Source of the DNA: Balneolales bacterium
Lineage (GTDB): Bacteria > Bacteroidota > Rhodothermia > Balneolales > Natronogracilivirgulaceae
Length of the DNA stretch: 35,371 nt
Reading direction: 5' to 3'
Assembly (NCBI GenBank): GCA_007128855.1
Contig: SKWQ01000222.1
Location: 1-35,371, forward strand
Under the pieces are notes generated by a model. It was not told the origin of the DNA, did no database searches, and was given only the letters and a program-made list of their open reading frames with translations. The translations under genes and the position numbers were made by a program. The stretch's first letter is position 1. Each line of letters opens with the position of its first letter. Below are positions 25,456-28,190 of the stretch, in pieces.

Positions 25456-26157
25456 TCAGGAGTTGCTATGTGCCGGTGCCTCCAGCCGACCGTGGTGAAG
25501 ATGATAGACGGTTGATGCGATGGCGGCGATCCGGGTGTCATGGGTGATCAGGACGATGGCTGTTTGCTCCTTCTCCCTGATATCCATCAGCAGCGAAAGC
25601 AGCTTGTCGGTATTGGCTTCATCCAGATTTCCGGTGGGCTCGTCGGCCATGATGATTTCCGGGCCGTTCATCAGCGCCCGCGCTACGGCAACACGTTGCT
25701 GTTCACCGCCCGACAACTCGGATGGACGGTGATCCATTCGGTTTTTCAGGCCGGTTTCCTCAAGGAGGTACTCCGCACGCTGACGGATTTCCGGCATGGG
25801 TCTTGCTGCGATGAGCCCGGGCATGAAGACGTTTTCAAGTGCCGTGAATTCGGGCAGCAGATGGTGGAACTGGAAGACAAACCCGATGTTCCGGTTGCGG
25901 AAATCGGCGAGGGATTCGTCGTTCATCCGGGACAGGTCCGCATCCCTGAAGCGGATGGTCCCCTTGTCGGGGCGGTCGAGGCCTCCGAGGATATGAAGCA
26001 GCGTGCTTTTCCCCGATCCGCTCGAACCGACAATGGCGGTCAGGTCATGACGGTTGACCGCGATGTCGACCCCCTTGAGCACGTGCACCGGTTCTGCTTT
26101 GCCCGTGTAGCTCTTGTGGATGTTTTCCGCTGTTAAAAGAGTGGTTGCGGTGTTCAC
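25456..26157 (-). CDS. lolD: ABC transporter ATPase, LolD-like (lipoprotein release)
   Basis: A 233-residue ABC ATPase. Walker A is GSSGSGKST (44-52), the Q-loop lies in GFVFQFHHLLPEFTALEN, the signature is LSGGEQQRVAVARAL, Walker B is IIMADEPTGNLD and the H-loop is LITHD. This combination is typical of the LolD/MacB subfamily. LolD energises the LolCE permease that extracts lipoproteins from the inner membrane for transport to the outer membrane. No permease gene is adjacent, so the partner must be elsewhere and another MacB-type partner is possible. The start is GTG, overlapping the ymdB stop in a GTGA four-base overlap, so translation is coupled to ymdB. Confidence 0.87.
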   Translation of the reverse strand: MNTATTLLTAENIHKSYTGKAEPVHVLKGVDIAVNRHDLTAIVGSSGSGKSTLLHILGGLDRPDKGTIRFRDADLSRMNDESLADFRNRNIGFVFQFHHLLPEFTALENVFMPGLIAARPMPEIRQRAEYLLEETGLKNRMDHRPSELSGGEQQRVAVARALMNGPEIIMADEPTGNLDEANTDKLLSLLMDIREKEQTAIVLITHDTRIAAIASTVYHLHHGRLEAPAHSNS

Positions 26158-26969
26158 GATGCAGATCCGGTTTCAAATGCAGGAAAAGTCACGGGGGTAA
26201 CAAACAGACATTTTCCCGTTTCCGGGTCGATTTCGGTGAACAGTCCGCAAATTCGGTTGTCTCCGTTGGCCATTTTGTACTTGTGGGGAGTCTGGAGCAG
26301 GAATCGCTTGATGGCGGTCTCCTTGTCCATGCCGATGACAGAATGATACGGGCCCGTCATTCCCACATCGGTGATATAGCCGGTTCCCATGGGCAGCAGC
26401 CGGGCGTCCGCTGTGGGGATGTGGGTATGGGTGCCGGCAACAACGGATACCTTGCCGTCCACATACCATGCGAACGCCATTTTCTCGGCGGTGGCTTCGG
26501 CATGAAAATCCACAAACACGACAGGGGTCTCTTCCCGGATTTTTTCGATGACCCATTCGCCGGCGCGGAAGGGATCGTCTATGGGCTGCATGTAGGTGCG
26601 ACCCTGAAGATTGACCACTCCGATCTTGTGAGGTGTTCCCGGCACCTCATAGACCCCGTAGCCGAATCCGTGAGCTCCCTTCGGATAGTTCATCGGTCGC
26701 AGCAGTTTGGGATCGGTTTTCATGTAGGGATAGATCTTCCACTTGGCGAAACTGTGGTTTCCGCCCGTGATCACATGGACGCCCAGGCCGTACAGCGAGC
26801 GGATGATCTCCTCGTTGATGCCCATCCCTTCATGGGAGTTTTCGGCATTGGCTATCACAAAATCCGCTTCATACTTACTGATGAGGGAGGGAAGCAGTGT
26901 TTCCAGAAGGGAGAGCCCCGGTGATCCGACGATATCGCCGATGAACAGAACCTTTAATGGTTTAGACAT
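26154..26969 (-). CDS. YmdB/TIGR00282 family metallophosphoesterase
   Basis: The ORF track starts at 27068, but family similarity starts at the ATG at 26969 (MSKPLKVLFIGDIVGSPG), giving 271 residues. Metal-binding motifs are in order: GDIVG, NAENSHEG, GGNHSF, FVDFHAEATAEK and GTHTHIPTADAR. These match the YmdB family, whose characterised members hydrolyse 2',3'-cyclic nucleotides or phosphodiesters and affect motile/sessile and RNA-related regulation. Family members often have GNHTW where this one has GNHSF. Its TGA overlaps the lolD GTG. Upstream is the candidate 6S RNA and then zapA. In many Bacteroidota a ribonuclease Y gene sits near zapA; it is not seen here. Confidence 0.9.
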   Translation of the reverse strand: MSKPLKVLFIGDIVGSPGLSLLETLLPSLISKYEADFVIANAENSHEGMGINEEIIRSLYGLGVHVITGGNHSFAKWKIYPYMKTDPKLLRPMNYPKGAHGFGYGVYEVPGTPHKIGVVNLQGRTYMQPIDDPFRAGEWVIEKIREETPVVFVDFHAEATAEKMAFAWYVDGKVSVVAGTHTHIPTADARLLPMGTGYITDVGMTGPYHSVIGMDKETAIKRFLLQTPHKYKMANGDNRICGLFTEIDPETGKCLFVTPVTFPAFETGSAS

Positions 26970-27006: not shown

Positions 27007-27142
27007 AAAAAAACGCTGATGAAGCAGGCACAAGACAAGCTACCGTCATTGACAGTGCGGGAATCCACTCGAACCGGGTCTGCCTTCCACTATTCACCGG
27101 AGTGACATGAGGCCTGGCATTGTCGGACGAAGTTGAACACCC
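27007..27142 (-). ncRNA. Probable 6S RNA (ssrS-like)
   Basis: The ~250-base gap between zapA and ymdB holds a structured, non-coding segment on the same strand. On the minus strand a closing stem pairs CAACTTCGTC (27135-27126) with GACGGTAGCTTG (27047-27036) with small bulges. Next, GACAATGC (27124-27117) pairs with GCACTGTC (27058-27051) with one mismatch. Inside lies an open region with a small hairpin, TCAC-TCCG-GTGA (27105-27094), and an apical GGAA/TTCC stem. This is the 6S layout: a long duplex with a central bubble that mimics an open promoter and binds RNA polymerase. The core is about 110 nt. A run of seven Ts (27013-27007) follows. The position next to zapA matches 6S in many bacteria. 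The exact ends are estimates. Confidence 0.6.
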
Positions 27143-27220
27143 TTTTTTTTAAGTGTTGTGCTTGTTTATGTTAACCCTGCTTCAAAAGCGTTTTAAAGAA
27201 ACGATCTTTAATCGGGCCAC

Positions 27221-27532
27221 TTAAATATCGGAATTTTCCTGTTCAATTTCATCCAAAATCTTGCGAAGTGAATCATTAATATCGGTAAACGCATTCAGTT
27301 GCTCAGATGAGCCACCCGGCCTTTCCCCTTCGTTTGCCATGAACAGTTCCTCCGCGATGCTCAGGCAGGCCAGGACCATGATGGTGGGCTCGGACTGGTT
27401 GATGAGTGCCTTTCGGAAATCATGGAACCGCCTGTCCACATAGTCGGCAATCCTGTACATGAGTTCCTCATCGCCCTCGTTTATCTTGAGGGGATATTGC
27501 TTGCCCAGTATGGTAACCTTGATTGATTTCAT
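27221..27532 (-). CDS. zapA: Cell division protein ZapA
   Basis: A 103-residue ZapA-family protein that promotes FtsZ bundling at the division ring. The N-terminal beta-hairpin KSIKVTILGKQYPLKINEGDEE is typical. A helix with RIADYVDRRFHDFRKA follows, then a short IMVLACLSIAEELF helix that forms the tetramer interface, and a C-terminal coiled coil (TDINDSLRKILDEIEQEN). Length is normal. It lies downstream of pheST and a small coiled-coil gene and upstream of the 6S RNA candidate, an order common in Bacteroidota. Confidence 0.9.
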   Translation of the reverse strand: MKSIKVTILGKQYPLKINEGDEELMYRIADYVDRRFHDFRKALINQSEPTIMVLACLSIAEELFMANEGERPGGSSEQLNAFTDINDSLRKILDEIEQENSDI

Positions 27533-27680: not shown

Positions 27681-28079
27681 TCACGATTCAGCCGCTGCTG
27701 ATGATCCGGCCCGATCCAGATGTTTGTCTATGCGTGAGATCAGATCGATGATCTGCTGTCTCAGTATTCGCCTTTCGTTTTCGTCCAGTGTGTCGAACAG
27801 CGAAGGGGATGATGGCCCGGATTCTCCGGAGACGGCACCTGGCGTATCGAGGGGATCGATTCCCTGATCCGCCGTCTTTCCGGGCTGCTCCTTTTTGAGA
27901 CGGTCCATTTCCCTGCTGGCTTCGGCGAGTTGTCCGCGTACATCCTTCAACTGGCTGCTGAACTCCAGGTTTTCATCTTTCAAACGTTGGTTTTCCTCTT
28001 TCAGGTCGTTTACGCCAGACTGGATCCTGGTCAACAGATCACGAAACTCCTTATAGTATGGCTGGTCATGGTATGTCAC
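27681..28079 (-). CDS. Small coiled-coil protein upstream of zapA, unknown function
   Basis: The ORF has no ATG. The track uses a GTG at 28139, but a second GTG at 28079 is preceded by GGAG at 8 bases spacing, so 28079 (132 residues) is preferred. Residues ~12-65 form a strong coiled coil (IQSGVNDLKEENQRLKDENLEF, then LAEASREMDRLKKEQ). A Gly/Ser/Pro-rich linker (GAVSGESGPSSPSL) leads to a C-terminal helix (LRQQIIDLISRIDKHLDR). There is no signal peptide or membrane segment. I do not recognise a family. The coiled-coil nature and the place before zapA suggest a ZapB-like division-ring partner, but this is inference from context. Confidence 0.7.
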   Translation of the reverse strand: MTYHDQPYYKEFRDLLTRIQSGVNDLKEENQRLKDENLEFSSQLKDVRGQLAEASREMDRLKKEQPGKTADQGIDPLDTPGAVSGESGPSSPSLFDTLDENERRILRQQIIDLISRIDKHLDRAGSSAAAES

Positions 28080-28190
28080 TGTACATGCTCCGTTTTTGGT
28101 AAGAGACAAGTTGCTGACTGCATACTGCCGGTATTGCACAGAACTGCTATTGTATTACTGCTGTTGAAACGCTGGATGGAAACCCTGATT

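Follow-up and report, generated by a model that had tools for sequence, protein, structure and literature searches.

Does the gap of about 250 bases between zapA and ymdB in a Balneolales bacterium encode a 6S RNA, as a first-pass annotation proposed, and if so, how far does the gene extend and from which strand is it read? The question matters beyond this locus, given that 6S RNA regulates transcription globally and that a missing Rfam annotation can pass for biological absence. We analysed the stretch of DNA in which the gap lies (35,371 nt, referred to here as the window) together with related genomes. The proposed identity is supported by reciprocal covariance-model matches, by full-length Rfam 6S matches below the cut-off at six homologous loci and by gene order, and for these reasons we regard the RNA following zapA, with a probability of roughly 95%, as a 6S RNA (ssrS-type) gene on the minus strand with its own stem and T-run terminator.

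Extent, fold and strand of the RNA

The gap, which lies in the order pheT-ORF-zapA-RNA-ymdB (pheT named from its translation), is non-coding and holds no plausible gene, and on the minus strand it is strongly structured, both as first proposed. Its neighbours are recognised by Pfam as ZapA and YmdB (Table 1), and for the segment 27003-27196 the predicted folding energy is -69.5 kcal/mol (z = -5.5), a value reached by none of 200 shuffled sequences. The conserved unit runs on the minus strand from approximately 27194, a 5' end placed by alignment to within a few nucleotides, down to the T-run at 27013-27007. This run of seven T had been correctly noticed after the duplex, and at least six T are found in all homologues of alignment A2. 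The interval originally proposed, 27007-27142, therefore left out 52 nt at the 5' end of the RNA, including the closing-stem side 27192-27160 and the 5' strand of the bubble (27159-27143), and the short form of about 110 nt that had been expected gives way to a unit of about 188 nt.

Table 1. Coordinates of the candidate 6S RNA gene, its structural elements and its neighbours in the window
Feature	Coordinates	Strand	Remarks
6S RNA gene (very probable)	27007..27194	(-)	~188 nt; fold z -5.5, homologues between zapA and ymdB, model R1, alignments A2 and A3
zapA, upstream neighbour	27221..27532	(-)	Pfam ZapA, E 3.5e-17
ymdB, downstream neighbour	26154..26969	(-)	Pfam YmdB, E 2.8e-100
Closing stem, 5' strand	27176..27192	(-)	pairs with 27012-27028
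Inner helix below bubble, 5' strand	27160..27170	(-)	pairs with 27029-27040
Central bubble, 5' strand, A-rich	27143..27159	(-)	unpaired in consensus; aligned to RF00013 bubble via relatives
Apical arm closed by GGG/CCC	27059..27142	(-)	
Terminal hairpin UCAC-UCCG-GUGA	27094..27105	(-)	tip of apical arm
Hairpin ACUGUC-AAU-GACGGU, 3' bubble strand	27042..27056	(-)	same element in sister group
Inner helix below bubble, 3' strand	27029..27040	(-)	
Closing stem, 3' strand	27012..27028	(-)	continues into terminator
Terminator T-run, seven T	27007..27013	(-)	read from sequence

Sequences of the window's group (alignment A3) and of its sister group (A4), aligned separately, give the same layout, with a closing stem, an inner helix, a central bubble, a hairpin in the 3' strand of the bubble, an apical arm closed by GGG/CCC and the T-run. 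Both consensus folds thus form the long rod of closing stem, central bubble and apical arm expected of a 6S RNA, and the 3'-strand hairpin, a common but not universal element of the family, is also present. A small hairpin had been placed in the bubble by the first-pass annotation; a bubble hairpin does exist (27056-27042), with the form ACCGU...ACGGU in the sister group, but the TCAC-TCCG-GTGA element to which the claim referred (27105-27094) caps the apical arm instead. A local 5' hairpin seen in the single-sequence fold (AACACUU...GGGUGUU) was rejected, since it is broken by a change of U to C in five relatives (L027, L029, L031, L033 and L034); in the apical arm, by contrast, that base and its partner change together.

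Compensatory changes among relatives, which the original proposal had named as a check, are abundant and lie far above the slid controls. In the sister group, pairing holds in 96.6% of the cells and two-sided changes occur at 16 of 47 pairs, compared with at most 48% of the cells and five two-sided pairs in the controls. The window's group reaches 98.0%, with two-sided changes at 11 of 58 pairs, compared with at most 45% and three pairs. Neither of these alignments was fitted to a structure. Across the phylum, 29 sequences show two-sided changes in 37 of 47 pairs, in an alignment that was fitted to model R1 (described below) and is hence biased towards the R1 structure.

The strand is fixed by 143 G-U cells against 18 A-C cells when the RNA is read on the minus strand. 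A functional transcript from the plus strand, which also folds well (z = -3.7), can practically be dismissed in view of this excess, of the T-run sitting at the minus-strand 3' end and of the fact that every match is on the zapA strand. As no promoter was recognised in a search of the window, it is possible that the RNA is processed out of the zapA transcript. In nine of ten sister-group sequences TATATT occurs some ten or more bases upstream of the RNA. The GATATT conserved upstream in the window's group was discarded as a -10 element, since these bases close the zapA gene and lie at no constant distance from the RNA.

Relationship to the Rfam 6S families

Scanning the window with Rfam gave no 6S or 6S-Flavo match even at E 10, and the Rfam 6S search of the window's own genome was likewise negative, so the window does not itself score over the Rfam cut-off. 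This was one half of the outcome that the first-pass annotation had set down as speaking against a 6S RNA. We did not read the missing match as absence, because relatives do match, and the curated cut-off (46.4 bits for RF00013) is a detection threshold and not a biological definition. At six homologous loci RF00013 aligns over its full length (positions 1-187) with 25.9-31.5 bits, below the cut-off, and no other Rfam family recurs at homologous loci. The link to 6S-Flavo that had also been suggested did not survive, as RF01685 matches neither the window nor any genome carrying the RNA. Three weak RF01685 matches (E 0.4-0.6) in genomes of the sister family f3, at places with no detectable mutual similarity, were attributed to chance.

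The relationship was established in both directions with covariance models of our own, whose E-values are rough but whose bit scores are unaffected. Model R1, built from the sister group only and excluding the window's group, finds the window RNA over its full length (E 8.5e-17) and, in the window's genome, nothing beyond the RNA between zapA and ymdB; in the phylum sample it recovers many loci found independently by the Rfam 6S model, including the one over the cut-off. Conversely, a search with model R2, for which members of the window's group alone were used, recovers that same accepted 6S RNA, which lies in genome G152 elsewhere in the phylum and scores 47.1 bits in Rfam (cut-off 46.4). 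The R2 match has 48 bits (E 2.5e-11), spans the full length and is on the same strand. Homology to accepted 6S RNAs, for which either direct or reciprocal matches were counted, is thereby present. A third model (R3) contains the window's own sequence and was left out of the evidence for the window. The RNA could instead be some other sRNA whose likeness to 6S is confined to its shape, such as a base-pairing sRNA derived from the zapA 3' UTR, which would agree with the lack of a direct Rfam 6S match in the window and with a 6S function deduced by analogy; the strong full-length reciprocal matches to an accepted 6S RNA, together with a gene order that is constant across the phylum, make this very improbable.

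Within the phylum sample of 198 genomes only one scores over the Rfam 6S cut-off, and almost all 6S matches fall below it, even though the RNA is located after zapA. A better 6S model for Bacteroidota could be built from the alignments presented here, and the position next to zapA offers a simple way to locate the gene.

Conservation, gene order and apparent loss in a sister family

Of 60 relatives searched at the DNA level with the gap, 25 gave matches. Between genera of the family, identity of the RNA block is mostly 89 to 95% (73% in one case), even though ZapA drops to 55-75% protein identity between those genera. The named relatives carrying the RNA are nearly all Balneolales, Balneolaceae or Balneolia, mostly metagenome-assembled genomes, and the RNA is present but unrecognised in four Balneolales families. 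One contig labelled Syntrophomonadaceae (L057, SLHT01000165.1) carries a Balneolales-type RNA at its end and is probably mis-binned. Several metagenome contigs end inside or beside the RNA (L051, L057, L067, G007:C38 and G007:C69), as would be expected if near-identity between coexisting species breaks assemblies.

The RNA precedes ymdB in all 28 fetched loci, and zapA lies on its other side in all but one, where the contig ends. The Rfam 6S model or R1 pointed to 34 distinct places in Bacteroidota (35 loci, L103 and L138 being an identical place), and at every one of them zapA is directly upstream on the same strand, its end 0 to 270 nt from the RNA. An RNA lying directly upstream of ymdB on the same strand in 28 loci and ending with a terminator-like stem could also be a cis-acting leader or attenuator of ymdB. 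We consider this very improbable, however, because in G020 the RNA follows zapA while ymdB is on another contig, in G152 the order is pheT-ORF-zapA-6S-rny-coaE (pheT, rny and coaE named from translations), the ymdB of family f3 has no such element, and homology and fold are those of 6S RNA. From the gene orders of G020 and G152 it follows that the 6S RNA candidate travels with zapA and not with ymdB. In the window, a small coiled-coil-like ORF with no Pfam match over the cut-off lies between pheT and zapA (27681-28139) and is found at the same place in G152 and G020; judging by its location, it may be a zapB-like partner of zapA.

The searched genomes of f3, a large Balneolales sister family, gave no convincing match to R1, R3 or the Rfam 6S model. 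In ten of the eleven fetched f3 loci (L126-L136), all from near-complete genomes, zapA and ymdB are separated by 11 to 62 bases. The two genes are parted in one genome of the family by 910 inserted bases that carry an unrelated reading frame (L127:591-1501). It is likely that this family lost its 6S RNA; less probably, the RNA was relocated and strongly diverged. Tentatively, and with slightly less than even confidence, we propose as a whole that the zapA-6S linkage is ancient, being common to Bacteroidota and beta/gamma-proteobacteria, and that in f3 the 6S RNA was lost and zapA and ymdB closed up. If true, this loss would create a natural comparison for working out what cells need 6S RNA for.

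Presumed mechanism and comparison with known systems

By analogy with known 6S RNAs, this RNA would be transcribed, bind polymerase, serve for pRNA synthesis and be under growth-phase control. It would most likely fold as a long rod whose central bubble resembles an open promoter, binding the holoenzyme with the housekeeping sigma factor as growth slows and keeping it off genomic promoters, until nucleotides became available again, when the polymerase would transcribe a short pRNA from the 5' bubble strand and the 6S RNA would be set free. The presumed template is the 5' bubble strand (27143-27159), which reads GCACAACACU in the window; as a guess, synthesis would start near 27155 and the pRNA would begin 5'-GUUGUGCUUG. 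The sister-group strand reads GAACGAUAAU, which we take to resemble the E. coli pRNA start region GAGCCGAUAU, and the sequence of the presumed start is not conserved between the two groups. Such a mechanism is plausible here because in Bacteroides thetaiotaomicron, a member of the wider Bacteroidota, both a 6S transcript and pRNAs have been observed (PMC7366714).

A literature search that covered papers other than the main survey of 6S RNA (Wehner et al. 2014) returned neither a report of 6S RNA in Balneolales nor a description of the zapA-6S linkage in Bacteroidota. Ms1 RNA of actinobacteria also has a 6S-like fold and acts on RNA polymerase, but it binds the core enzyme and belongs to a different lineage and gene context (PMC9130861). 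The divergent 6S-Flavo form described from Bacteroidetes (RF01685; PMC2864571) has a model of 108 positions that does not match the window RNA. The closest likeness is to RF00013 6S/SsrS RNA of about 185 nt, which shares the closing stem, central bubble, 3'-bubble-strand hairpin and GGG/CCC apical arm, and to which relatives of the window RNA align over all 187 model positions. Unlike those RNAs, the window RNA is too diverged in sequence for the Rfam cut-off, is followed by ymdB instead of ygfA, and has a terminator-like T-run directly on its closing stem; as in beta/gamma-proteobacteria, where 6S RNA follows zapA (PMC7641849), its upstream neighbour is zapA.
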